A stretch of DNA of 64,000 nt from Bacteroidota bacterium (GTDB taxonomy: Bacteria; Bacteroidota; Bacteroidia; Bacteroidales; Lentimicrobiaceae). The notes below the pieces were generated by a model. The model saw only the letters and a program-made list of their open reading frames with translations, searched no databases and was not told the origin of the DNA. The DNA lies in the NCBI GenBank assembly GCA_009773455.1, contig WSXU01000015.1, positions 124,001 to 188,000 on the forward strand. The letters run 5' to 3'. Made by a program: the position numbers and the translations under genes. Positions 483 to 57,306 of the stretch are shown here, one piece after another. Position 1 is the first letter of the stretch; the number at the start of each line of letters is the position of its first letter.

Positions 483-1097
483 TCAGATCAGCTTGAGGTT
501 CATTTTGATCCTGGATGTCAGAATATCTATGGCCACATGGTTGGCACCACCCTGGGGGACAATAATATCAGCATAACGTTTTGTTGGTTCAATAAACTGA
601 AGGTGCATGGGTTTCACGTACTTCTCATAATGTTCAAGAACCTGGGAGAAAGAACGTCCGCGTTCCTCAATATCACGACGGATAATCCGCATCAGGCGGT
701 CGTCGGCATCGGCATCAACAAAAACCTTTATATCCATTCGGTCGCGAAGTCGGGGGTTCGACATGATCAGAATGCCTTCAACAATAATGACTTCCTTTGG
801 TTGAACAGGGATGGTCTCTTTGGCTCTTGCACAGGTAAGATAACTGTATATAGGCATCCCTATGGTTTCACCTTCCTTCAGGGCATCAAGGTGCCGGATC
901 AAAAGGTTAAATTCAATGGAAGACGGGTGGTCAAAGTTGATTTTTGCCCGATCCTCCGGATTCAGATGGCCATTGTCCTTGTAATAGGAGTCCTGGGGAA
1001 TGACAGCAACAGAGTCCTTGGGGAGTTTCTTGATGATCTGTTTGACAACGGTGGACTTTCCGCAGCCGGAACCTCCGGCAATTCCGATGATTAACAT
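483..1097 (-). CDS. udk: Uridine kinase
   Basis: Cytoplasmic pyrimidine salvage enzyme that phosphorylates uridine and cytidine to UMP and CMP with ATP or GTP. The 204-residue protein has the P-loop GGSGCGKS at residues 8-15, an early QDSYYKD stretch typical of uridine kinases, the FDHP nucleoside-binding segment around residues 55-58, and a lid region with RRDIEERGRS. Length matches the family (about 205-215). It is single-cistron with its own terminator. The four-helix bundle cassette sits immediately upstream, between it and the methylmalonyl-CoA decarboxylase operon. Confidence 0.95.
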   Translation of the reverse strand: MLIIGIAGGSGCGKSTVVKQIIKKLPKDSVAVIPQDSYYKDNGHLNPEDRAKINFDHPSSIEFNLLIRHLDALKEGETIGMPIYSYLTCARAKETIPVQPKEVIIVEGILIMSNPRLRDRMDIKVFVDADADDRLMRIIRRDIEERGRSFSQVLEHYEKYVKPMHLQFIEPTKRYADIIVPQGGANHVAIDILTSRIKMNLKLI

Positions 1098-1140: not shown

Positions 1141-1166
1141 TATTGGAAGGATGCAATGATGGAATA
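1141..1166 (+). repeat. Left arm of cassette 1
   Basis: Reads TATTGGAAGGATG then CAATGATGGAATA; inverted partner of 1754-1788. Its end also forms a local hairpin with 1177-1186 (AATGATGGAA / TTCCATCATT). Confidence 0.6.
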
Positions 1167-1309
1167 ATGAGGCTTCTTCCATCATTATCCCGGTTAGAAC
1201 CGGAAATATGGCCTTAAGGTAATTAATGCCGATCGAAAATTTGAGTAATGTTGGGCTGACTTCCAACTCTCCACCCTTCAAAAATTAAAGCATTTCAATA
1301 CTTCAAACT

Positions 1310-1714
1310 TCACAATTGGTCATCCCAGGTTCCGTTTTTCAACTTAACCTGTAGAGACTTAATTAATTGTATAAGTTCATTTTCAGTTTTGTAATGTAGT
1401 TCATCCATTTCCTCAAAGGATTTCTCAGAAATCTGTCCAGCCTTTAAAAAACTTGTAATACACGAACAAAACTCCCCGGAAGAACCAAGTGCAATGTTGC
1501 AAAAATGAAGATATTCCTTAATGCTTTTCCTGCAATAACCTTCAGCAATATTCCTACTGATGCTATGGGCAGAATCAATGCAATTTGAAGCGGTTTTCTT
1601 AAGTTCCCATGGGAAATTCATTAATTCATTGCAGGCAAGAATATATAAATCAACAGCATCCAGCCATACCCTGAGTTGTTTAAAACCACGGTTAATGTTT
1701 TTTCTTTCTGTCAT
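1310..1714 (-). CDS. Four-helix bundle protein (23S rRNA intervening-sequence protein family)
   Basis: 134-residue, all-helical small protein of the family named after ORFs in 23S rRNA intervening sequences (S23/IVP, TIGR02436). Family marks are the opening FKQLRVWLDAVDLY, the central SAHSISRNIAEGYCRKS (compare the usual 'S.P.NIAEG..R' core), then LHFCNIALGSSGEF, and a final long amphipathic helix. There is no signal peptide or membrane segment. The molecular function of the family is unknown. It is the only ORF between udk and mmdB and is flanked by inverted word repeats. No rRNA gene is nearby, so this is a free-standing copy. Confidence 0.85.
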   Translation of the reverse strand: MTERKNINRGFKQLRVWLDAVDLYILACNELMNFPWELKKTASNCIDSAHSISRNIAEGYCRKSIKEYLHFCNIALGSSGEFCSCITSFLKAGQISEKSFEEMDELHYKTENELIQLIKSLQVKLKNGTWDDQL

Positions 1715-1753
1715 GTATGGATTTATAATGTCTGGAACTAGCTACAACAAAAC

Positions 1754-1788
1754 ATATTCCATCATTCCAATATTCCATTCTTCCATTA
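1754..1788 (-). repeat. Right arm of cassette 1
   Basis: Tandem ATTCCA/TTCCAT words running into the mmdB stop codon; on the minus strand TGGAATATTGGAATGATGG, complementary to 1141-1166. Confidence 0.6.
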
Positions 1789-2949
1789 CGCAAGAAATCC
1801 CAGCAGGATACCGGCGGCAACAGCGCTGCCAATTACCCCGGCTACGTTGGGGCCCATGGCGTGCATCAACAGGTGGTTGGTTTTATCGTATTCAAGTCCT
1901 ACTATCTGCGAAACACGGGCACTGTCAGGAACTGCTGAAACTCCGGCATTCCCGATCAACGGGTTCATTTTGTTGCCTTCCTTCAGGAACAGATTAAGTA
2001 TCTTGACAAACATAACACCTCCAAAGGTAGCAATCACAAACGAAGCGGCTCCAAGGGCAAAGATACCGACAGACTTTGCCGTCAGAAAAGTGGTCGCCTG
2101 TGTTGATGCTCCGACAGTAAGGCCGATCAGAATGGTAACAATATCGATCAGGGGACCTTTTGCGGTATCAGCAAGGCGCTTGGTTACACCACTCTCTTTG
2201 AGCAGGTTCCCAAAGAAAAGCATGCCGAGAAGGGATAAACCAGAAGGCACGATGAAGGTTGTAAGCAACATCCCAATGATCGGGAACAGTACCTTTTCCG
2301 TCTTCGATACAGCGCGGGGAGGCTTCATCCGGATAACGCGCTCTTTGGATGTAGTGAGCAAACGCATTACCGGTGGCTGGATCACAGGCACGAGCGCCAT
2401 ATATGAATAAGCTGAAATAGCAATTGCCCCGAGAAGTTCAGGTGCCAGCTTTGATGACAGGAAAATGGCTGTGGGTCCGTCGGCTCCACCGATAATACCA
2501 ATGGCCCCCGCTTCTGAAGGTGTAAACCCCAGTAATAAAGCAATGCCATAGGCACCAAAGATTCCAAGTTGTGCTGCCGCTCCGATAAGCATTAATTTTG
2601 GGTTTGAAATGAGGGCAGAGAAATCGGTCATTGCCCCGATCCCAAGAAAAATCAATGGCGGATAAATACCTTGTAAAACACCGAAATACAGATAGTTTAA
2701 TACACTTCCTGATTCATAAATACCAATCTGTAACCCCGGCGTGAAAGGGATATTGCCGACCAGAATTCCGAATCCAATAGGCACAAGTAAAAGTGGTTCA
2801 TATTCCTTGGTAATAGCCAGGTATATAAAACTGAGCCCGACACAAATCATAACAAAGTGCCCCAATGTAAAATTGGCAAAAGCGGTATAGGAAAAGAACT
2901 GATTTAAGTGCTCTCCGATAAAGGTTAAAAAGGTTCCAGAATGTTCCAT
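1786..2949 (-). CDS. mmdB: Na+-translocating methylmalonyl-CoA/oxaloacetate decarboxylase, beta subunit
   Basis: Integral membrane subunit that couples decarboxylation of carboxybiotin to export of Na+. The 387-residue protein is highly hydrophobic with about ten membrane spans. It shows the family stretches GIYPPLIFLGIGAMTDF and IGIIGGADGPTAIF, the latter with the conserved Asp of the sodium path, and a late PLIGNAGVSAVPDSAR segment. Length is usual for OadB/MmdB (370-430). Only 2 bp separate it from the biotin carrier gene upstream. It is the last gene of the operon mce-mmdA-mmdD-mmdC-mmdB. Neighbouring mce and mmdA favour methylmalonyl-CoA over oxaloacetate as substrate. Confidence 0.93.
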   Translation of the reverse strand: MEHSGTFLTFIGEHLNQFFSYTAFANFTLGHFVMICVGLSFIYLAITKEYEPLLLVPIGFGILVGNIPFTPGLQIGIYESGSVLNYLYFGVLQGIYPPLIFLGIGAMTDFSALISNPKLMLIGAAAQLGIFGAYGIALLLGFTPSEAGAIGIIGGADGPTAIFLSSKLAPELLGAIAISAYSYMALVPVIQPPVMRLLTTSKERVIRMKPPRAVSKTEKVLFPIIGMLLTTFIVPSGLSLLGMLFFGNLLKESGVTKRLADTAKGPLIDIVTILIGLTVGASTQATTFLTAKSVGIFALGAASFVIATFGGVMFVKILNLFLKEGNKMNPLIGNAGVSAVPDSARVSQIVGLEYDKTNHLLMHAMGPNVAGVIGSAVAAGILLGFLA

Positions 2950-25506: not shown

Positions 25507-25540
25507 AATTGCGGACTTCGGATTGCGGATTGCGGATTTA
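25507..25540 (+). repeat. GCGGATT-word tandem tract upstream of tyrS
   Basis: Imperfect repeats of ATTGCGGA / TTCGGATT. The same word tract recurs in the same orientation just after tyrS (26907-26967) and after scoA (57251-57267). Confidence 0.6.
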
Positions 25541-44842: not shown

Positions 44843-44846
44843 TGGA

Positions 44847-45001
44847 AGCTCAAAGTAAAAAGTTCCGTTCTGTGGAAGGGATGGTGTTAATTCTGGAAAA
44901 TTACTTTTTACCTGTCTGCCGATTTATCCACCTAAGGTGGACAGGCAGGCTTTAGACTTTTTACTTTGAACTTTGAACTTTTTACTTTAGACTTTTTACT
45001 T
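44847..45001. repeat. ORF-less inverted word-repeat element between buk and the C26 peptidase gene
   Basis: Left arm 44847-44865 (GCTCAAAGTAAAAAGTTCC); right arm 44949-45001, tandem ACTTTTT/ACTTTGA/ACTTTAG words whose complement pairs with the left arm. Between them lies a nested hairpin (44911-44949) with CCTG.CTG and TCCACC arms closing on CCTAAGG. The element starts 5 bp after the buk stop and the right arm covers the stop codon of the convergent gene (44996-44998). It looks like a cassette without its ORF. Confidence 0.5.
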
Positions 45002-48919: not shown

Positions 48920-48945
48920 GGACGAGGTACGGTTGGTTAATTGCC

Positions 48946-48969
48946 GTGGTCTCGACTCCGCTCGACCAC
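48946..48969. repeat. REP-like hairpin GTGGTCTCGA-ctccgc-TCGACCAC
   Basis: 24-bp imperfect inverted repeat in the mccB-liuC gap, 27 bp past the mccB stop. Small extragenic palindrome; no T-run follows. Confidence 0.5.
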
Positions 48970-48975
48970 CTGAAA

Positions 48976-49056
48976 GACAAGGGGAGAAAGGAATTTCTAA
49001 TGTCTAATTTCTAATGCCTAATGTCTGATGTCTGATGTCTGATGTTTGATGTTTGA
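48976..49056 (+). repeat. Tandem word tract GACAAGG / TTTCTAAT / GTCTGATG / GTTTGATG
   Basis: Short words repeated 2-4 times each. TTTCTAATGCCTAA here is repeated almost exactly at the left arm of cassette 2 (50011-50037), so liuC is bracketed by direct copies. Confidence 0.65.
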
Positions 49057-49164
49057 CACCAAACGGTAAATTTTCAGTATCGTCAGAATTTGAATAATTT
49101 AAACTATTATTCCTGCTTGAAATATTTCGGAATTCAATAAAATTTTTGCGACTTTGCTTCCCCT

Positions 49165-49180
49165 CCTGCCGTCGGGCAGG
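49165..49180. repeat. Short palindrome CCTGCC-GTCG-GGCAGG
   Basis: Perfect 6-bp arms with a tetraloop. Related to the CCTG.CTG palindrome at 44911-44949. Confidence 0.5.
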
Positions 49181-49225
49181 TTTGCGTGAAAGTCGACAGA
49201 ACATCAAACCTTCATCGATAGATAT

Positions 49226-50014
49226 ATGAATAAATACATGACTCTGGAAGTTGAAATCAGAAATCAAACAGGAACCATCTGGCTGAATCGCCCGGATATC
49301 CGCAACGCCTTTAACGAGGTGATGATCGGCGAACTGATCAAGGCTTTTAACGAAGTTTCATCGCTTGAAGAAGTTCGGGTGATTGTGTTGCGCGGGCGGG
49401 GGAAATCCTTCTGCGCCGGAGCCGACCTGAACTGGATGCGCGATGTTGCGACATACAGCTATGAGCAGAACTATAAGGAGAGTCTGCAACTTTCAGACTG
49501 TTTCTATACCATCTACAACTGCCCGAAACCAACCATTGCCGTGGTTCACGGGGCAGCCATCGGTGGCGCCAACGGACTGCTTTCGGCCTGTGATATGGCT
49601 GTTTGCGATGATGAAACTGTTTTTTCACTTTCAGAAGTTAAAATCGGTATCGTTCCGGCCTGTATTTCACCCTATGTGATTAAGCGGGTGGGTGAGTACG
49701 GGGCAAGGGAACTTATGCTGACCGGAAGGCGCATCAAAGGAAAGGAAGCCGAACATTTCAGGCTGGTAAACAAATCGTTGCCTGCTGCTGAACTTGATGC
49801 TTATCTCAGTGATCTTATCGCCCTGCTGATGAGCAGTGGCCCCAAAGCCATGACCCAATGCAAGACCCTGATTGACCAGGTGTCCAACAAAATCACCCTG
49901 GAAGAAGCCCTCGGATACACCGCAAAAATGATTGCCGAAATCCGTGCCTCGGAAGAGGGACAGGAGGGGATGGCTGCCTTCCTTGAAAAACGGATACCCG
50001 GATGGAATATCTAA
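49226..50014 (+). CDS. liuC: Enoyl-CoA hydratase (methylglutaconyl-CoA hydratase)
   Basis: Crotonase-family enzyme, 262 residues. Motifs: GTIWLNRPDIRNAFNEVM, the oxyanion hole segments GKSFCAGADLNWMRD and VHGAAIGGANGLLSACD, and the ETVFSLSEVKIGIVPA segment with the catalytic Glu. Placement between mccB and mccA and the match in style to LiuC/AUH indicates hydration of 3-methylglutaconyl-CoA to HMG-CoA. The stop codon lies within the left arm of cassette 2. Confidence 0.9.
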   Translation: MNKYMTLEVEIRNQTGTIWLNRPDIRNAFNEVMIGELIKAFNEVSSLEEVRVIVLRGRGKSFCAGADLNWMRDVATYSYEQNYKESLQLSDCFYTIYNCPKPTIAVVHGAAIGGANGLLSACDMAVCDDETVFSLSEVKIGIVPACISPYVIKRVGEYGARELMLTGRRIKGKEAEHFRLVNKSLPAAELDAYLSDLIALLMSSGPKAMTQCKTLIDQVSNKITLEEALGYTAKMIAEIRASEEGQEGMAAFLEKRIPGWNI

Positions 50015-50037
50015 TTTCTAATTTCTAATGCCTAAAG
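50011..50037 (+). repeat. Left arm of cassette 2
   Basis: CTAATTTCTAATTTCTAATG then CCTAAAG; complementary to 50444-50471 and a direct relative of 48992-49023. Confidence 0.7.
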
Positions 50038-50085
50038 TACTCATAGTAATTAAATTAGCTTAATGGCAAAGAAAAATTTTTAATT

Positions 50086-50439
50086 ATGAAATCAAAATAC
50101 GATTTACTTGAGCGGACAGCCGTTTTCGGAGAAAGTATTATCACATTCTGCCTTTCGTTGCCAAAAACAGTTATTACTATTCCACTGATCAATCAATTGG
50201 TAAAGTCTGGTACCAGCATTGGAGCCAATTATACAGAAGCAGATAATGCTGAAAGCAAAAAGGATTTTAAACATAAGATTGGAATATGCAGAAAAGAATC
50301 TAAAGAGGCTGGTTTTTTCCTGAGAATGATAAAGACTGCAGTTCCGGAGAAATCAACAGAAGTTGAGATGCTTCTGCAAGAAGCTCATGAATTAAATCTG
50401 ATCTTCAATGCAATCAATCACAATACTCATATTGATTAA
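50086..50439 (+). CDS. Four-helix bundle protein (23S rRNA intervening-sequence protein family)
   Basis: 117-residue helical protein. Family marks: LLERTAVFGESIITFCLSLP, the central LVKSGTSIGANYTEADNAES (equivalent of the 'S..I..N..EA' core), KKDFKHKIGICRKESKEAGF and a C-terminal helix ending NAINHNTHID. No signal or membrane segment. Lower GC than the flanking liuC and mccA genes as judged by eye. It interrupts the leucine operon between liuC and mccA but in the same orientation. Function unknown. Confidence 0.87.
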   Translation: MKSKYDLLERTAVFGESIITFCLSLPKTVITIPLINQLVKSGTSIGANYTEADNAESKKDFKHKIGICRKESKEAGFFLRMIKTAVPEKSTEVEMLLQEAHELNLIFNAINHNTHID

Positions 50440-50443
50440 TTGA

Positions 50444-50471
50444 TTTTAGAAATTAGAAATTAGAAATTTTT
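50444..50471 (-). repeat. Right arm of cassette 2
   Basis: TTTTAGAAATTAGAAATTAG then AAATTTTT; inverted copy of 50011-50037. Confidence 0.7.
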
Positions 50472-50483
50472 GTAATTTAAGAA

Positions 50484-52472
50484 ATGAAAACAATAAAACT
50501 CCTCATAGCCAACCGCGGAGAAATCGCTTTAAGGATTCAGCGCACAGCCCGGAAAACGGGAATCAGCACCGTTGCTGTTTACTCGAAATACGATGCTGAA
50601 GCAAAGCATGTTCTGAATGCTGACGAATCTGTAATGCTTCATGGCGAAAGTCTGGCTGAAACCTATCTTAACATTGAAGCCATGGTCGCAGCAGCAAAGA
50701 AAACCAGGGCTACAGCTATCCACCCCGGCTATGGTTTTCTGTCGGAAAATCCACTGTTTTCTGAAGCCTGTGAAAGGGAAGGAATCATTTTCGTGGGCCC
50801 TTCGGCTGATTCGGTGCGGGCCATGGGCAATAAGATTGCGGCCCGCGAAGTTGCCGTAAGACTGGGCGTTCCTGTCACCCCCGGCATCACCGGTTCGCCG
50901 GATGAGCTGCTCAGAGATCATGGCAATGTCGGGTTTCCGATGCTGATCAAAGCCGCTGCGGGTGGTGGAGGAAAGGGTATGCGCATCGTCCGGACCCGTG
51001 AAGAACTTGCCCTGGCCCTGGAAAACACTTCCCGGGAGGCCCTGAACTATTTCAGCGATGGGACCATCTACATTGAAAGGTTTGTTGAAAATCCCAGGCA
51101 CATTGAAGTGCAGGTTCTGGGTGACAAACACGGGAATATGGTTCACCTGTTCGAAAGGGAGTGCTCTGCGCAGCGCCGTCACCAGAAGATCATTGAAGAA
51201 GCTCCATCGCCTACACTGACGACTGAAGTCAGGCTGAAGATGTGTGAATCGGCTGTAATACTGGCTTCATCCATCGGATATTACAGTGCAGGAACCATCG
51301 AATTTCTTGTCGACAGTGAACTGAATTACTATTTCCTTGAAATGAATACCCGTATCCAGGTGGAACACCCTGTAACGGAAATGACCACTGGGTTTGACCT
51401 GGTGGAAGAGCAGTTAAGGATTGCTACAGGCGAACCATTGCGGATGAAACAGGAAGAGATAAGGCAGACCGGACATGCCATCGAATGCCGTATCTATGCT
51501 GAGGATCCTTCAAACAATTTCATGCCTTCACCAGGGCATATCAGCCTGTATCATGAACCTGCCGGGCAGCACATCCGCATTGACAGCATGGAAATTGATC
51601 ATGAAGGACTCATTCATTCCTTTTTTGATCCGATGATCGGGAAACTGATTACCTGGGGCGAAAACCGGGAGGAAGCCCGCCTGAGAATGATCGGTGCACT
51701 GGAAAACTGGGTGGTACAGGGAATCCATACCAACATCACTTTTCTGGCCGGTATCATGCAACATACTTCATTTTCCGGCAACACAATTACAACCCGTTAT
51801 ATTGATAATCATCTTGAAGAACTTGTCGGGTATACCAACCAGTTAAAATCTGCAATTCCCCCTGAAATCCCCTTGCTTTCCGGAACACTTTTCAGTTTAT
51901 CGGTAAACAGGAGCACAATCGCGAACATCTGGCAGGCCATCGGATATTGGCGTCATCTGCCGGAACCCATCGTGCTGCTTGATGGTATAAGACAGGAAAT
52001 AAAGATTATCGGCCTGAAAGGAGACCAACTGGAGTTTACGTTGAATGGAAGAACAGGACAGGCATCTCTGCAAGGCGACCCAGGCCAGCAGAGACTTTGG
52101 CTCGACGGAATTAGCCACACCGTATTTATCGGTAAGGATGAAAATGGCCGGTTTGCTGTTACGTACAAAGGATTTAAATTTATTGTAGAACGCTCCGACA
52201 TGCCTGGTCCGGAAAATATCAGTTTTGCTGAAGCGGGAAATGTGAACATTGACCCGGGAAACATTGTTTCTCCAATGCCGGGCAGGGTGCTCAAAGTCAA
52301 CGTGTCAGAAGGTGATGAAGTGAAGAAAGGCCAGGTCCTGATGGTGGTGGAGGCCATGAAAATGGAGAATAATATCCTTTGCCCCGAAGATGGTGTGGTT
52401 GATAAACTGCTGGTCAAAGAAGGCGACATGGTCGACAGCAGTGCCCGGCTGGTGCATATCGGAGAGCGATAA
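50484..52472 (+). CDS. mccA: Methylcrotonyl-CoA carboxylase, biotin carboxylase/biotin carrier (alpha) subunit
   Basis: ATP-dependent carboxylation of biotin for MccB. 662 residues. Biotin carboxylase domain (1 to about 450): LLIANRGEIALRIQRTARK, HPGYGFLSENPLFSEACE, the ATP loop KAAAGGGGKGMRIV, HIEVQVLGDKHGNMVHLFER, and EMNTRIQVEHPVTEM. A beta-barrel BT region follows, then the biotinyl domain with VVEAMKMENNI (Lys near 628). Length and the BC-BT-BCCP order match MCC alpha. Confidence 0.93.
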   Translation: MKTIKLLIANRGEIALRIQRTARKTGISTVAVYSKYDAEAKHVLNADESVMLHGESLAETYLNIEAMVAAAKKTRATAIHPGYGFLSENPLFSEACEREGIIFVGPSADSVRAMGNKIAAREVAVRLGVPVTPGITGSPDELLRDHGNVGFPMLIKAAAGGGGKGMRIVRTREELALALENTSREALNYFSDGTIYIERFVENPRHIEVQVLGDKHGNMVHLFERECSAQRRHQKIIEEAPSPTLTTEVRLKMCESAVILASSIGYYSAGTIEFLVDSELNYYFLEMNTRIQVEHPVTEMTTGFDLVEEQLRIATGEPLRMKQEEIRQTGHAIECRIYAEDPSNNFMPSPGHISLYHEPAGQHIRIDSMEIDHEGLIHSFFDPMIGKLITWGENREEARLRMIGALENWVVQGIHTNITFLAGIMQHTSFSGNTITTRYIDNHLEELVGYTNQLKSAIPPEIPLLSGTLFSLSVNRSTIANIWQAIGYWRHLPEPIVLLDGIRQEIKIIGLKGDQLEFTLNGRTGQASLQGDPGQQRLWLDGISHTVFIGKDENGRFAVTYKGFKFIVERSDMPGPENISFAEAGNVNIDPGNIVSPMPGRVLKVNVSEGDEVKKGQVLMVVEAMKMENNILCPEDGVVDKLLVKEGDMVDSSARLVHIGER

Positions 52473-52516
52473 ATGCCACAAAGACCCTAAGCCACAAAGT
52501 TACACAGAGAATTTTT
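52473..52516 (+). repeat. Left arm of cassette 3
   Basis: Words GCCACAAAG (twice), CCTAAG, ACACAGAGAATTTTT; inverted partner of 52958-53002. Confidence 0.6.
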
Positions 52517-52537
52517 AATGCCTTTAAAAAAAATTAC

Positions 52538-52882
52538 ATGAAGGATTTTCCTGATCTTTCAAATGAGGAAGAAAGAATAGGCAAAGCATTGGTTGACGCT
52601 GCCTACAAAGTGCATTCTGAATTAGGGCCAGGTCTGCTTGAAAAAGTTTATGAATCATGCCTGTCACACACACTCAAAAAGGCAGGTTTTGATGTAAAAC
52701 GTCAGTTAGATGTTCCCATTGCCTTTGACGGACTAGTTTTTGAAGAGGGATTGCGATTGGATATTCTTATAAATGATCTTGTAATTTGTGAACTCAAAGC
52801 AGTTGAAGTGGTAAATCCGGTTTGGACAGCACAAATTCTCAGTCATTTAAAACTGACCAATAAGCGTTGGGGTATCTTATAA
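52538..52882 (+). CDS. GxxExxY protein (PDDEXK-like), C-terminus shifted out of frame
   Basis: 114 residues in frame. Opens with ERIGKALVDAAYKVHSELGP and the family signature GLLEKVYE (GxxExxY). Then come RLDILINDLVICELKAVE, with Asp and Glu-x-Lys placed as in PD-(D/E)xK nuclease folds, and HLKLTNKRWGIL. A stop follows at 52880-52882. The next frame continues INFNVPLIKDGIKRFIR to a stop at 52930-52932, which is the normal end of this family. A single missing base near 52879 therefore truncates the protein by about 17 residues (or is a sequencing error). Function of the family unknown; nuclease activity is only suggested by the fold. Confidence 0.85.
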   Translation: MKDFPDLSNEEERIGKALVDAAYKVHSELGPGLLEKVYESCLSHTLKKAGFDVKRQLDVPIAFDGLVFEEGLRLDILINDLVICELKAVEVVNPVWTAQILSHLKLTNKRWGIL

Positions 52883-52957
52883 ATTTTAATGTTCCATTAA
52901 TAAAAGACGGAATAAAGAGATTTATCAGATAAGTTATCAGATTGATATTAAATTGTT

Positions 52958-53002
52958 AAAAATTTTGTGAACCTTAGTGTCTTTGCGCCTTTGTGGCAAA
53001 AA
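52958..53002 (-). repeat. Right arm of cassette 3
   Basis: TTTTGTGAACCTTAGTG then TCTTTGCGCCTTTGTGGCA; inverted relative of 52473-52516 and direct relative of 46201-46240. Confidence 0.6.
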
Positions 53003-53011
53003 CCAACAATT

Positions 53012-54157
53012 ATGGACTTTAACTTAAGTGAAGAGCACCGGATGATCCGCGAAACTGTCAGAAGTTTTGCCGAACGTGAAATCAAACCAGTCGCACGTGA
53101 GCTGGATGAAAAAGCTGAATTTTCAACAGATCTTACGCGGAAAATGGGTGAATTAGGCCTGTTTGGCATTTACCTGCCTACCAAATACGGTGGTGAAGGG
53201 ATGGACTACCTGGCCTATATCATCGCTGTGGAAGAGCTGGCCAGGATTGACGGTTCGCAGGCTGCAACGCTGGCCGCACATAATTCGCTTGGTGTTGGTC
53301 CGTTATATTATTATGGTTCGGAAGAGCAGAAGATGAAATACCTTCCAAAGTTGTGTACCGGGGAGGCTTTATGGGCTTTCGGTCTTACCGAACCCGATGC
53401 CGGGTCCGATTCACGCGGCTCAAAGACCCGTGCTACCCTCGAAGATGGTGAGTGGGTCATCAACGGATCAAAGATATTTATCACCAATGGTTCAGCCGAT
53501 ATCTCTGTCGGAGCCACGGTTCAGGCCGTTACCGGAGAAAAACACGGAAAAAAAGAATTCACTACCATCCTTGTTGATAAGGATACTCCAGGATTTACCC
53601 GCCGGACCATGCATGGAAAAATGATGTGGCGTGCTTCCGACACTGCCCAGCTCTTTTTCGATGACTGCCGTGTCCCCGAAGAAAATGTGCTTGGAAAAAT
53701 TGGTGACGGTTCAAAAATCATGCTTTCGACCCTTGATTCAGGCCGCTTGTCAATCGCAGCCATGGGACTTGGATGCGCCCAGGGTGCCTATGAGCTTGCC
53801 CTTTCCTATGCCCAGGAACGCAAGCAGTTTGGTCAGCCCATCTCAAAATTCCAGGCTATTGCTTTTAAGCTGGCCGATATGGCTATGAAGATTGAATTGG
53901 CGCGCAACCTGCTTTATAAGGCCTGCTGGCTGAAAGACAATCATTTGCCCTTTGCCAAGGAAGCCGCGATGTCGAAACTCTATTGCTCAGAAATTGCAAG
54001 GGAAGTTGCCGACGAAGGAGTTCAGATTCATGGAGGTTACGGACTTATGAAAGACTATGACATTGAACGTTTCTACCGTGATCAACGCCTGCTTCAGATC
54101 GGTGAAGGCACTTCAGAGATTCAGAGGATGGTTATCTCCAGGTATATTGGATGCTGA
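53012..54157 (+). CDS. Acyl-CoA dehydrogenase (isovaleryl-CoA dehydrogenase role)
   Basis: 381-residue FAD enzyme from the ATG at 53012 (MDFNLSEEHRMIRETV); the longer in-frame start at 52967 lies inside the repeat arm and is rejected. Motifs: FGLTEPDAGSDSRGSKTRAT, DSGRLSIAAMGLGCAQGAYE, and the C-terminal QIGEGTSEIQRMVISRYIG. Its position in the leucine cluster (mccB-liuC-mccA-this-HMG-CoA lyase) points to oxidation of isovaleryl-CoA to 3-methylcrotonyl-CoA. Sequence alone would fit any short-chain acyl-CoA dehydrogenase. Confidence 0.9.
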   Translation: MDFNLSEEHRMIRETVRSFAEREIKPVARELDEKAEFSTDLTRKMGELGLFGIYLPTKYGGEGMDYLAYIIAVEELARIDGSQAATLAAHNSLGVGPLYYYGSEEQKMKYLPKLCTGEALWAFGLTEPDAGSDSRGSKTRATLEDGEWVINGSKIFITNGSADISVGATVQAVTGEKHGKKEFTTILVDKDTPGFTRRTMHGKMMWRASDTAQLFFDDCRVPEENVLGKIGDGSKIMLSTLDSGRLSIAAMGLGCAQGAYELALSYAQERKQFGQPISKFQAIAFKLADMAMKIELARNLLYKACWLKDNHLPFAKEAAMSKLYCSEIAREVADEGVQIHGGYGLMKDYDIERFYRDQRLLQIGEGTSEIQRMVISRYIGC

Positions 54158-54164
54158 AAGATAC

Positions 54165-54204
54165 CGACAAGAAGACAAGGGGACAAGGGGACAAGGAGAA
54201 ATCC
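54165..54204 (+). repeat. Left arm of cassette 4
   Basis: GACAAGAAGACAAGG, GGACAAGG, GGACAAGG, AGAAATCC; complementary to 54704-54742. Confidence 0.7.
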
Positions 54205-54245
54205 AAAAATGGAGCAATTAAAACCTGAAAAAAATGTTCTGAGTT

Positions 54246-54629
54246 ATGAAAATTGAGAGTTACCGCGACCTGAGGGTTTATCAGGCATCAGTTGCGGCTT
54301 CAATGAGGATTTTTGAAATTACCAAATCATTCCCAAAGGAAGAAATGTATTCGATGACGGATCAGATGCGGCGCTCATCCAGAAGTGTTTGTACCAATAT
54401 AGGCGAAGCCTGGAGAAGAAGACGTTATAAAGCAGCCTTTATCGCAAAACTGAATGATTCCGAAACAGAAGCAACGGAAACCCAGGTCTGGCTTGAACTG
54501 GCTTTGCGTTCAGGTTATATCTCACAAGAATTTAATGATGAGATGTTTACCGAATATGAATCAATAATATCTCAGCTTGTGATCATGATAAATCAACCTG
54601 AGAAATGGATAATAGGACCTCTTAAATAG
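54246..54629 (+). CDS. Four-helix bundle protein (23S rRNA intervening-sequence protein family)
   Basis: 127 residues: ESYRDLRVYQASVAASMRIF, MTDQMRRSSRSVCTNIGEAW (the clear family core), RRRRYKAAFIAKLNDSETEA and TQVWLELALRSGYIS. Closest of the three to the common IVP consensus. A short upstream frame beginning at the ATG near 54209 (MEQLKPEKNVLSYEN) runs into this gene one frame away. One extra base in an A-run would fuse it, so the N-terminus may have been lost by a frameshift. Function unknown. Confidence 0.88.
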   Translation: MKIESYRDLRVYQASVAASMRIFEITKSFPKEEMYSMTDQMRRSSRSVCTNIGEAWRRRRYKAAFIAKLNDSETEATETQVWLELALRSGYISQEFNDEMFTEYESIISQLVIMINQPEKWIIGPLK

Positions 54630-54703
54630 GCTTAGTCGCTAAATTTACATATCACCCGGTCTATCAGTCAGAAAACATAAATAAACCATTCACCGATCAA
54701 AAA

Positions 54704-54742
54704 GGATTTCTCGCCTTGTCTCCATGTCTCCTTGTCCCCATT
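54704..54742 (-). repeat. Right arm of cassette 4
   Basis: GGATTTCTCGCCTTGTCTCC then ATGTCTCC, TTGTCCCC; inverted copy of 54165-54204, ending at the start of the HMG-CoA lyase gene. Confidence 0.7.
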
Positions 54743-54746
54743 TCAC

Positions 54747-55610
54747 ATGAAAAGTAACAAAGCCATCAAACTCACAGAGAGTCCCCGCGATGCCCAGCAG
54801 GGCCTACCCTATGTAATTCCGCCTGAAAAGCGGGCTGCTTACATCAATGCCCTGATGAAGGTTGGATTTGATGTCATCGACTTCGGAAGTTTTGTGTCGC
54901 CAAAGGCAATTCCGCAAATGGCGGAGGCTGGCAGGGTATTGTCAATGGTTGATAAAAGCCGGAGCCTTACAAAGTTAATGGCCATTGTCGGCAACCTGCG
55001 GGGAGGAGAGGAAGCTGCAGCTCAGAAGGCACTCGATATCATAGGGTTTCCGTATTCCACATCCGAAACCTTCCTGATGAAGAATATCCATGCCAATTCA
55101 GCAAAGGCTAACGAAATCATCGATGGTTTGCAGGATTTGTGCAACGATAGCGGGAAAGAGTTGCGCGTATTCATAAGCCTCGCCTTTGGTAATCCATACA
55201 ACGATCGCTGGGACGTAAACATTTTGTCGGGGCATATTGAAAACCTGGCCTCGAAAGGCATATCCACCATTACCCTGGCCGATACCATCGGTATTGCTTC
55301 GGCTCAACTGATTGATAGCGTTTATTCCACTCTTTTACAGCGATTTCCCGGAATAGAGTTCGGATTACACCTCCATACCAGGCCGGGGGAGTGGTATGCA
55401 AAACTTTCCGCAGCCTGGAATGCCGGTTGCCGCTGGTACGAAGGGGTAATCAGTGGGGTTGGCGGTTGCCCTATGACTGGCTACGAACTTGTAGGAAACC
55501 TCGACACCCTTAGCCTGATTTCGTTTCTGGAAGAGAAAAAAGTAAACCACCACATCAACACCAGCCATCTTTTTAACGCGGTGCGGCTGGCCGGTGAGTG
55601 GAACAGTTAA
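54747..55610 (+). CDS. Hydroxymethylglutaryl-CoA lyase
   Basis: Cleaves HMG-CoA to acetyl-CoA and acetoacetate, the last step of leucine degradation. 287 residues from the ATG at 54747, directly after the cassette arm (an upstream start lies inside the arm). TIM-barrel with ESPRDAQQGLPYVIP (catalytic Arg-Asp and Gln), FVSPKAIPQMAE, ADTIGIASAQLI, the metal-binding HLHTRPGEWYAKL, and the active-site Cys loop GVGGCPMTGYELVGN. Slightly short for the family (about 300) but complete. Confidence 0.92.
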   Translation: MKSNKAIKLTESPRDAQQGLPYVIPPEKRAAYINALMKVGFDVIDFGSFVSPKAIPQMAEAGRVLSMVDKSRSLTKLMAIVGNLRGGEEAAAQKALDIIGFPYSTSETFLMKNIHANSAKANEIIDGLQDLCNDSGKELRVFISLAFGNPYNDRWDVNILSGHIENLASKGISTITLADTIGIASAQLIDSVYSTLLQRFPGIEFGLHLHTRPGEWYAKLSAAWNAGCRWYEGVISGVGGCPMTGYELVGNLDTLSLISFLEEKKVNHHINTSHLFNAVRLAGEWNS

Positions 55611-55628
55611 CCGATTCATCATTTGACC

Positions 55629-56468
55629 ATGACGTTTCATCATCACATTCAGCAATTCACTCTACTGCTTTTCAGCGTTACCCTTTTTGGTCTTAACGGA
55701 ATGGCACAAAGCCAGCCCAGCTGCGAACCAGGTGAATTCGGCCATAACCAGCGTTACGGACAGTTTATTGCAGTTCATGGCATTTCAATCTATGTTGAAC
55801 GCTATGGCAAAGGTGAACCACTGCTGTTGCTTCATGGTAATGGGGGTTCCATAGCAAATTTCTCCTGCCAGATCCCTTACTTTGAGCAGAAATACGAAGT
55901 AATAGCCGTCGACAGCCGTGCACAGGGCAAATCAACCGACAAGGGCGATTCGTTGAGCTTCGAAATGATGGCCGATGATTTCAGTGAGCTGCTCGATTCG
56001 CTTCATCTCGACTCCTGCTATGTTCTGGGTTGGAGTGATGGGGGCATCAATGGGCTGATGCTGGCCATGCGCCATCCTGAAAAAGTTAAAAAACTTGCCA
56101 TTACAGGGGCAAATCTCTGGCCCGATAGCACCGCCATCAGACCTGCTGATTACAAGTGGATGGCCTCAGCCTATAAGGAACTCGGACAACAGCAACAAAC
56201 ACCGGAGATAAAAAATACCAGAAAATTGATCAGGCTTGACCTGACCGAACCCCACATTACCAAGGATCAGCTGCAAAAGATAAAATGCCCTACCCTGGTG
56301 ATTGGCGGCGACCGCGACATAATCCTGACTGAACATACGGTCTGTATCGCCCGCTCTATCCCGGATTCATATTTGTGGATTTTGCCTGGTTCAGGACATG
56401 CAACACTCATCGATCATAAGGATGAATTCAATGAAGTTGTGGGTAATTTTCTTGGAAGCGGATTATAA
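55629..56468 (+). CDS. Secreted alpha/beta hydrolase
   Basis: 279 residues from the ATG at 55629 (a TTG two codons earlier is also open). Signal peptide (...LLLFSVTLFGLNGMAQ). Oxyanion segment LLLLHGNGGSIANF, nucleophile Ser in VLGWSDGGINGLML, acid in VIGGDRDIILTEH and His in LPGSGHATLIDH. An esterase or peptidase-type serine hydrolase acting outside the cytoplasm. It lies 18 bp after HMG-CoA lyase, so it may be co-transcribed, but it has no evident role in leucine breakdown. Confidence 0.87.
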   Translation: MTFHHHIQQFTLLLFSVTLFGLNGMAQSQPSCEPGEFGHNQRYGQFIAVHGISIYVERYGKGEPLLLLHGNGGSIANFSCQIPYFEQKYEVIAVDSRAQGKSTDKGDSLSFEMMADDFSELLDSLHLDSCYVLGWSDGGINGLMLAMRHPEKVKKLAITGANLWPDSTAIRPADYKWMASAYKELGQQQQTPEIKNTRKLIRLDLTEPHITKDQLQKIKCPTLVIGGDRDIILTEHTVCIARSIPDSYLWILPGSGHATLIDHKDEFNEVVGNFLGSGL

Positions 56469-57250: not shown

Positions 57251-57306
57251 TTTCGGATTGCGGATTTCCATCCCCCGACCCTCGTCCCCCGTCCCTCGCC
57301 CCTTAA
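57251..57306 (+). repeat. GCGGATT and CCCTCGTCCC word tract between scoA and scoB
   Basis: Starts 2 bp after the scoA stop: TTTCGGATTGCGGATT then CCCCCGACCCTCGTCCCCC, GTCCCTCGCCCC. Both word families also occur near tyrS and purN. Confidence 0.6.

Follow-up and report, generated by a model that had tools for sequence, protein, structure and literature searches.

The intervening sequences (IVS) of 23S rRNA in Coxiella and Leptospira carry an open reading frame (ORF) for a four-helix S23p protein inside terminal inverted repeats; they lie in an rRNA helix, and RNase III cuts them out of the transcript. Their distribution is sporadic, and the parts of PMC4990558 used here term their functionality and origin unclear more than 25 years after discovery. 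The same parts describe the Coxiella IVS as bounded by inverted sequences, with heptamers (GACAGAT) repeated in tandem, in numbers that vary among strains, upstream of the four-helix ORF; the ORF itself is described as undergoing reductive evolution and as unlikely to be expressed (PMC4990558). Tandem heptamers are also on record outside rRNA: excerpts of PMC4679880 report them as common to Beggiatoaceae, Cyanobacteria and some Bacteroidetes, by a mechanism that is not evident. Repeat motifs likewise occur in the P6b stem-loop of the Nostoc tRNA-Leu intron, according to an extract of PMC4476775.

Here we analyse small genes that lie between inverted arms of short words at the junctions of protein-coding genes. 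The P6b motifs of the Nostoc intron pair with each other. Searches of the open-licence PMC literature (subscription papers lay outside this scope) found no title or abstract that describes a four-helix or GxxExxY gene flanked by inverted word arms; the term 'helix bundle' is absent from the text of PMC4679880, and the excerpts of that paper describe no gene between such arms.

Results

The window, by which we mean the whole 64,000-nt stretch of Lentimicrobiaceae DNA that was analysed (contig WSXU01000015.1), contains four cassettes at the places given in a preliminary description of this DNA, each consisting of one small ORF between complementary arms. Profile matches bear out the families assigned there: PF05635/TIGR02436 (four-helix bundle) match the ORFs of cassettes 1, 3 and 4, and PF13366/TIGR04256 (GxxExxY) match that of cassette 2. 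Their parts and related features are as follows.

50006..50028, plus strand: cassette 1 left arm, AATATCTAATTTCTAATTTCTAA, 7-nt words (TRF period 7), 96% complementary
50086..50439, plus strand: cassette 1 ORF, 117 aa, four-helix bundle (PF05635 E 5.5e-11, TIGR02436)
50446..50468, plus strand: cassette 1 right arm, TTAGAAA words, 15 nt upstream of the mccA start
52474..52506, plus strand: cassette 2 left arm, TGCCACAAAGACCCTAAGCCACAAAG..., 33 nt, 79% complementary, directly 3' of the mccA stop
52538..52882, plus strand: cassette 2 ORF, 114 aa, GxxExxY / PDDEXK_3 (PF13366 E 7.9e-30, TIGR04256 E 2.1e-31)
52966..52998, plus strand: cassette 2 right arm, from the inverted-repeat search
54166..54199, plus strand: cassette 3 left arm, GACAAGGG, 8-nt words (TRF period 8)
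54246..54629, plus strand: cassette 3 ORF, 127 aa, four-helix bundle (PF05635 E 1.3e-29, TIGR02436)
54708..54744, plus strand: cassette 3 right arm, CTCCTTGTCCCC words, ending 2 nt short of the likely HMG-CoA lyase ATG (54747)
1755..1786, minus strand: cassette 4 upstream arm (relative to the minus-strand ORF), touching the stop of gene 1786-2949(-)
1310..1714, minus strand: cassette 4 ORF, 134 aa, four-helix bundle (PF05635/TIGR02436)
1141..1169, minus strand: cassette 4 downstream arm, upstream of gene 483-1097(-), read as uridine kinase
48920..49225, plus strand: mccB/liuC gap, no cassette ORF; words of other gaps (GGGACGAGG, GACAAGGGG, TTTCTAATGTCTAA), then GATGTCT repeats
44846..45001, plus strand: gene-less arm pair, CAAAGTAAAAAGT / ACTTTTTACTTT words about 90 nt apart, score 16 against a maximum of 14 in 100 shuffles

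Cassette 4, too, sits between protein genes. The left arm of cassette 1 overlaps the liuC stop codon (50012-50014), and the acyl-CoA dehydrogenase probably starts, to judge from the sequence, at ATG 53012, 3' of the cassette 2 right arm. Contact between an arm and a neighbouring stop or start, proposed earlier as a rule, is common: abutment favours stop codons in a multi-phylum set, and both stops and starts in compact Bacteroidota operons. Lone 7-mer arrays with no good partner lie at 25508-25538, 48996-49056 and 57271-57302, and an Rfam search of 49000-56000 returned nothing up to E 1.

In the window, the arm-pairing score was reached by none of 200 dinucleotide shuffles for cassettes 1, 2 and 4 and by one for cassette 3; across the whole genome, 10 of the 14 members of both families pass dinucleotide shuffles at this level, and the others (L007, L009, L011 and L014) fall short of it. 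For comparison across sets, a locus passed when at most 1 of 100 shuffles reached its real score. The genus set held 140 loci once short flanks and identical copies had been removed from 199 family matches; 4 of 30 cyanobacterial loci were dropped, and none from the multi-phylum set or from the Bacteroidota sample, which comprises the 30 best-match loci, a small part of all matches there. By this measure 64/81 four-helix and 20/40 GxxExxY loci of the genus passed, as did 62/80 of the named multi-phylum loci and 20/26 cyanobacterial loci; among the best 30 Bacteroidota loci, 13 passed and 17 failed. None of 19 arm-less, vertically inherited core members of the genus passed. The 18 multi-phylum failures include both Cloacimonadota loci and one of the two labelled Anaerolineales or Chloroflexi. 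Some passing GC-rich loci, such as L244, L237 and L282, resemble long weak alignments rather than word arms.

Ranked among the partners of other loci, the own partner came within the top 5 of 140 for 59/81 genus four-helix loci (2.9 expected), 21/40 GxxExxY loci and 0/19 arm-less core members, within the top 5 of 80 for 45/80 multi-phylum loci, and within the top 3 for 20/26 cyanobacterial and 23 of the best 30 Bacteroidota loci; because differences in base composition between genomes bias this control towards own partners, the shuffle figures are given beside it. Scores of at least 19 were reached by 63/81 genus four-helix, 20/40 GxxExxY, 59/80 multi-phylum and 20/26 cyanobacterial loci and by 11 of the best 30 Bacteroidota loci, against 1/35 control genes in the genus and 4/59 in the others, these being small sets of genes chosen to lie more than 700 nt from any family match. 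The excess of paired arms that the preliminary description expected around these families elsewhere is thus shown by shuffles, mispairing and control genes alike.

Congeners also supply the empty sites that an insertion would leave in relatives' operons, with the same gaps being empty, filled, or occupied by another cassette. In 13 genomes the liuC/mccA gap spans 468-770 nt; in G008, G003 and G009 it spans 3, 1 and 27 nt, respectively. Gaps of 111-142 nt, present in G006, G010 and G002, were not counted as clean empty sites. One and the same gap holds non-orthologous cassettes in different congeners, and the mccB/liuC gap carries a four-helix cassette in seven congeners and an eighth, G010. 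Nostoc cassettes are 92-96% identical at unrelated loci, and one Nostoc site is near-empty in another Nostoc, an allele that may be a deletion scar because it retains 10 nt from the outer end of the left arm. No direct repeat was seen at the one well-resolved Nostoc site, and the four-helix type yielded neither a transposase nor a target duplication. By eye, some Nostoc cassettes (L249 and L258) are nested in other inverted repeats. The cassette ORFs are under purifying selection: median dN/dS is 0.06-0.12 in 7 ORF groups (53/94 pairs usable) and 0.10 for the cassette 1 ORF in its group of 7 genomes.

The four-helix arms are built of tandem words with a period of 7 or 8 nt, and these words travel with the element; the general claim of tandem words fails for GxxExxY arms, which are barely tandem. 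Arm sequences are unrelated between cassettes within the window, as first described, though words are often common to orthologous cassettes of different congeners. Relative to the ORF, the upstream arm is richer in G than in C at nearly every paired four-helix locus (61/62, 25/27 sites, 19/20 and 15/16). In groups of orthologues at the same site, arms paired in cis exceed those paired in trans modestly (combined z 2.56, 11 groups), with no excess in the cassette 1 group (25.1 vs 26.0), so that concerted change of both arms is weakly supported. An alternative count of 64/84 for such change was set aside, as it mixed word types and overstated the effect.

The preliminary description took the cassettes for IVS-like elements carried in mRNA, with arms that pair in RNA; such elements would be processed, for which RNase III cutting is the likely form, or bypassed, and would be tolerated because they run with their host genes. 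Kinship with IVS in protein and layout speaks for this, as do the compact operon junctions of Bacteroidota, and folding of the predicted transcripts lets the two arms pair in each of the four window cassettes, a result given here with no shuffle comparison. Upkeep of the arms for RNA pairing finds no sign in their mismatches, since G.U is not favoured over A.C: the counts are 208 vs 246 in the genus, 189 vs 227 in the multi-phylum set and 16 vs 37 in the best 30 Bacteroidota loci, or 413 vs 510 for these three sets pooled (p 0.0016, in the direction opposite to the RNA prediction), and the cyanobacterial set is flat (56 vs 53). Co-direction holds for 4/4 window cassettes but not as a general rule. 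Genus four-helix ORFs share the direction of 23/24 upstream and 23/28 downstream neighbours, not clearly above the baseline of 168/204 neighbouring gene pairs; the multi-phylum figures are 35/57 and 35/55, and both neighbours are antisense to the cassette at 11/49 multi-phylum loci with both neighbours called. We consider this explanation unlikely, though it survives best among the alternatives.

Slightly less probable still is a passenger origin, in which known transposases move classic terminal-inverted-repeat (TIR) elements that carry the ORF and arms as cargo or have them as degenerate ends. It draws on the GxxExxY kind, which in one congener, G011, rides as cargo of an ISL3-type element. 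There, 12/14 compared GxxExxY copies are one dispersed element of about 700 bp with GGGT TIRs; of six copies with both ends, judged by eye, three have a perfect 8-bp target duplication, two have one mismatch and one is unclear. The TIR (up to 3 mismatches) is present in 9/19 genus genomes, with 0 for a reversed-pattern control; ORF-less TIR copies measure about 312-330 bp, one of them (L324) with an 8-bp duplication, and a 286-aa ORF near a TIR at L334 in G013 matches DDE_Tnp_ISL3 (PF01610) over its first 140 residues. The nested Nostoc cassettes are also in its favour. Against it, the window's own genome has a single TIR pattern match, on contig C56 and none at the window, neither an outer TIR nor a target duplication turned up at the window cassettes, the words of the arms vary between copies, and both arm polarity and the 7-8-nt period track the four-helix ORF. 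Cassette 2 is a second kind with a similar layout; GxxExxY should not be lumped with four-helix cassettes, as it was at first, because its arms are of another sort, with no polarity (5/11), weak tandem words and the dispersed TIR element of G011.

The G-rich polarity of the upstream arm also invites a regulatory reading, in which purine-rich upstream words serve as a ribosome-binding or leader sequence, the complementary downstream arm masks these words or terminates transcription, and the gene moves by ordinary recombination. Cyanobacterial arms do continue into a GGAGG-like run immediately 5' of the ATG, and arms adjoin stop codons, but AT-rich words such as TTTCTAA are unlike ribosome-binding sites, G.U is not preferred, and arm-less core members are maintained in 8 and 11 genomes; we regard this reading as very improbable. 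Accidental complementarity of slippage-prone intergenic repeats, for which the solo 7-mer arrays noted above might be cited, is refuted for the cassette class as a whole by the shuffle, mispairing and control-gene tests and retains a negligible probability.

Discussion

We favour, with moderate confidence, a reading of the four-helix cassettes as compact elements, mobile now or in the past, that are kin to 23S-rRNA IVS and have arms that work at the DNA level, with GxxExxY cassettes as a second kind. Each four-helix cassette consists of one four-helix gene between inverted arms of tandem 7-8-nt words, placed at gene junctions and often right at a stop codon. We propose that the arms would serve as the ends of a DNA element and stay complementary because a protein binds them or because one arm is copied from the other, that the encoded four-helix protein may recognise its own arms as a putative binding partner, and that movement would depend on a trans-acting enzyme or on hitchhiking. 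More speculatively, several phyla may carry transposase-less DNA cassettes whose ends can be any matched G-rich/C-rich tandem 7-8-nt words, matched by arm copying or by the four-helix protein, and which home to the 3' ends of genes; the 23S-rRNA IVS would then be the branch that landed in rRNA. This wider proposal is tentative.

Kinship with 23S-rRNA IVS, as the preliminary description has it, holds by protein family and by layout. Cassettes 1, 3 and 4 share the four-helix protein (PF05635 above cut-off), which cassette 2 lacks, and the window cassettes share the inverted complementary termini. They differ in lying between protein genes and in having ORFs under purifying selection where that of Coxiella is in reductive evolution. 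Cassette arms show no G.U-over-A.C signature as would be expected of an RNA stem (413 vs 510 in the three pooled sets). What stands of the IVS-like interpretation is the arm excess, the empty or replaced sites and this kinship; RNA-pairing upkeep, general co-direction and the inclusion of GxxExxY are not supported.

Foldback elements, which are eukaryotic and of another scale and content, have long terminal inverted repeats of short tandem units; in arm build they resemble the cassettes, as an analogy only. ISL3-family elements and their non-autonomous derivatives share GGGT-type TIRs and 8-bp duplications with the G011 GxxExxY copies, traits not seen at the window cassettes and not found for the four-helix type. 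The Avd protein of diversity-generating retroelements (DGR) is distant kin of the cassette 3 protein, which has a weak bAvd match under the family cut-off (PF22296 E 2.7e-4) and also matches PDB 2rld and 2gsc by sequence. A reverse-transcription route or DGR membership was rejected: a profile search found RVT_1 in 8/19 genus genomes, the two matches of the window's own genome being on contigs C137 and C41, off the window's contig, and found none in the cassette-bearing G001, G011 and G016, absences that are soft because the genomes are drafts. With RVT_1 in 8/19 genomes only, no reverse transcriptase is needed. The heptamers of PMC4679880 are likewise 7-nt tandem words, as far as its excerpts describe them; here, the words form matched pairs around a gene.

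PF05635 is common in Bacteroidota, with a match in 157/198 sampled genomes. The members that founded the family lie within inserts of rRNA. Many relatives, for example in Nostoc and Calothrix, share the same layout of inverted word arms between protein genes, so that what the protein does and where IVS come from can be tested directly. A gene family is thereby tied to some of the short tandem words that cyanobacteria and Bacteroidota carry, which the excerpted literature treats as repeats without a known mechanism.

Paired arms surround small ORFs in several phyla

In the window, each of three consecutive gaps of a leucine operon is occupied by a cassette, a single small ORF between inverted complementary arms. 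The operon runs mccB, liuC, mccA, acyl-CoA dehydrogenase (acdh) and HMG-CoA lyase (hmgl), with names assigned by reading the proteins. A further cassette lies apart:

1141-1786, minus strand, cassette 4

The ORFs of cassettes 1, 3 and 4 encode four-helix proteins (PF05635), and that of cassette 2 encodes a GxxExxY protein. The cassette 3 protein matches PDB 2rld and 2gsc in sequence; a search for PDB matches to the cassette 2 protein, up to E 0.1, found none. In the source genome, 10 of 14 members of both families, among them all four window cassettes, have arms whose pairing score is reached by at most 1 of 200 dinucleotide shuffles. We also scored, irrespective of ORF content, the 42 operon gaps of at least 380 nt in genomes of the genus, with 300 shuffles each; in 32, the score was reached by at most 3 shuffles.

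Operon gaps passing the shuffle test, by position
mccB-liuC: 6/8
liuC-mccA: 13/13
mccA-acdh: 6/10
acdh-hmgl: 7/11

Among 140 distinct loci in the genus, 19 form two vertically inherited groups (represented in the source genome by L007 and L014) that score 11-17. In a mispairing test across the genus, the own partner ranked in the top 5 for 0/19 of these, 59/81 other four-helix and 21/40 other GxxExxY loci. It did so for 45/80 of a multi-phylum set of named loci from Bacteroidota, Cyanobacteria, Nitrospirae, Planctomycetes, Verrucomicrobia, Chloroflexi, Cloacimonadota and others, and ranked in the top 3 for 20/26 loci from ten cyanobacterial genomes and 23/30 of a Bacteroidota sample. As partners borrowed from other genomes are of different base composition, we added 100 shuffles per locus, a test passed by 64/81 four-helix, 20/40 GxxExxY and 0/19 arm-less loci of the genus, and by 62/80 multi-phylum, 20/26 cyanobacterial and 13/30 Bacteroidota-sample loci. 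Both Cloacimonadota loci fail it, and a few GC-rich passing loci resemble long weak alignments. A score of 19 was reached by 1/35 and 4/59 control genes. These shuffle, mispairing and control-gene tests in several phyla bear out the cassettes with paired arms reported in the preliminary description, and extend them far beyond what it claimed. G-rich word arms (GGGGTAGGGAGTAAGG / CCCCTTACCCATCC) also flank one control gene from outside both families, and a further gene family may make use of such arms.

Arm anatomy and position

Four-helix arms consist of tandem words, 7 nt long in 30/46 tandem up-arms of the genus and mostly 8-9 nt in the multi-phylum four-helix set, which was retrieved using the clade of cassette 3. 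GxxExxY arms scarcely show tandem structure. Counting paired loci only, with some shared between the cyanobacterial and multi-phylum sets, the arm upstream of the ORF is G-rich at 61/62 multi-phylum, 19/20 cyanobacterial and 15/16 Bacteroidota-sample loci and at 25/27 genus sites; for GxxExxY this is so at only 5/11 sites. Arms adjoin stop codons: no more than 25 nt separate the start of the upstream arm from the stop of a neighbour on the same strand in 14/23 genus, 16/34 multi-phylum, 5/9 cyanobacterial and 10/16 Bacteroidota-sample cases (medians -3 to -7). Downstream neighbours whose stop points towards the cassette give 12/20 multi-phylum and 7/11 cyanobacterial cases. On sides that face a start codon the fit is less tight in the multi-phylum set (4/21 and 9/33), but not clearly so elsewhere (cyanobacteria 4/8 and 3/9, genus 13/23, Bacteroidota sample 9/15). 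All these distances are approximate, as a local alignment may extend past the arm into a gene. Co-direction with the host genes, earlier put forward as a rule, is not one.

Solo arrays of 7-nt words (ATTGCGG, TCTGATG and CCCTCGT type) also lie in gene gaps of the window:

25508-25538, solo array
48996-49056, solo array
57271-57302, solo array

No good inverted partner was found for them within 1.6 kb; a weak partner of the array at 48996 is the right arm of cassette 1.

Cassette sites differ in content among related genomes

Comparison of the operon among congeners reveals both empty and swapped sites, in agreement with the mobility originally claimed. The liuC-mccA gap measures 468-770 nt in 13 genomes; it lacks a cassette in G008 (3 nt), G003 (1 nt) and G009 (27 nt). 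A single gap can house different cassettes: liuC-mccA holds ORFs resembling that of cassette 1 (70-89% identity) in six congeners and, in five others, a more distant four-helix ORF (31-33% identity) beside words of the GATTTCG/GATTGCG kind, which replace AATTTCT; in G007 it holds an 89-aa ORF with no listed match. In acdh-hmgl, GACAAGGG words accompany one ORF type and GGGACGA words another. A four-helix cassette occupies mccB-liuC in seven congeners and G010; the source genome's gap is cassette-free, yet retains stretches of the other gaps' words. The mccA-acdh gap of G017 (L056) is 60 nt long, its sole content a hairpin-like TTATCAC..CAAAGACC..GGTCTT..GTGATAA that is perhaps a collapsed arm pair; several relatives hold a GxxExxY cassette there. 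The L154 region (G012:C65:1-9800) contains a pair of four-helix cassettes less than 8 kb apart; both have long AAAGACAAAAGTA-type arms, and one has an internal stop. Four Bacteroidota-sample loci (L347, L353, L367, L374) have arms with differing words seemingly between the same two genes, the upstream ending ..EENWN stop and the downstream starting MINLFNT-like; from these gene ends they appear to be another recurrent junction.

In Nostoc, some cassettes that are 92-96% identical over about 430-525 nt have different flanks; they share word type and differ in word number. A joined-flank search found one such site nearly empty in another Nostoc, where 22 nt separate the stop codon from the bases that are next conserved; the filled allele has 468 nt at this position. 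Three further Nostocaceae have other contents there, with outer ends still inverted-looking; at the well-resolved site, no direct target duplication was visible. Five Nostocaceae genomes (L235, L375, L381, L383, L384) have five different contents after the same stop codon, all beginning TTGRAGA and 4/5 ending in its near complement; this junction is a hypervariable site between inverted ends.

In G011, 12/14 compared GxxExxY copies are one element of ~700 bp with imperfect terminal inverted repeats (TIRs) beginning GGGT. Six copies have both ends: read by eye, the 8-bp duplication is exact in three, differs at one position in two and is unclear in one. Several contigs terminate inside the element, which fits a repeat of recent origin. 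Allowing up to 3 mismatches, we detected the TIR in 9/19 genus genomes (reversed-pattern control, 0), including ORF-less copies of about 312-330 bp, one of which (L324) has the duplication TCGATTCG; at L334 it lies near an ORF matching DDE_Tnp_ISL3. Judging from duplications, TIRs and this match, the G011 GxxExxY-plus-arms unit is, or formerly was, mobile as putative ISL3-type cargo. L120-L130 and L132 represent a burst of this element, with several copies decayed, and a few copies have an extra palindrome (ATCCCGAT..ATCGGGAT) within one arm. No TIR of this GGGT type was seen at the window cassettes. The treatment of the two families as one class holds in part: paired arms occur in both, and the putative ISL3-type cargo of G011, inconsistent polarity and barely tandem arms set GxxExxY apart.

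Relation to rRNA intervening sequences and maintenance of the arms

The nearest known counterpart of the cassettes, alike in layout, is the intervening sequence (IVS) of 23S rRNA, which lies in an rRNA gene and is excised from the transcript; the window cassettes sit between protein genes. The Coxiella IVS is described as a four-helix ORF within a 28-bp terminal stem, preceded by tandem GACAGAT heptamers in strain-dependent copy number; its functionality and origin are there termed unclear, with transposition and mobility among the authors' hypotheses (PMC4990558). The IVS kinship proposed earlier is upheld by ORF family, for the four-helix cassettes, and by layout. Heptamer arrays are known, without a mechanism, from Beggiatoaceae, Cyanobacteria and some Bacteroidetes (PMC4679880). 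We found no description of armed four-helix or GxxExxY cassettes in the literature searched, whose coverage was partial.

Median dN/dS is 0.06-0.12 in seven orthologue groups of cassette ORFs (53/94 pairs usable, synonymous sites often close to saturation), indicating that the proteins are kept, and the arms are still matched across this divergence. Arms are not required for gene retention, since one four-helix and one GxxExxY gene with constant neighbours and no paired arms (L007- and L014-type) are kept in 8 and 11 genus genomes, the source genome included.

Selection for sense-RNA pairing, for which the arms had been proposed to be kept, should tolerate G.U above A.C differences. Across 85 genus, 63 multi-phylum and 16 Bacteroidota-sample loci we counted 413 G.U-type and 510 A.C-type differences, and 56 and 53 in the cyanobacterial set, so that the proposal goes unsupported. 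Predicted transcripts of all four window cassettes can fold arm to arm (without shuffle control), and an RNA role of the arms is possible, though one that finds no evolutionary support here. Orthologues show a modest degree of concerted arm change (combined z 2.56, 11 groups). It is most evident at the L159 site and lacking in the cassette 1 group, in which different species have words in common. The lack of a G.U excess argues for arms kept matched as DNA rather than by RNA pairing; such upkeep could involve a protein binding to both arms, or the use of one arm as template for the other.
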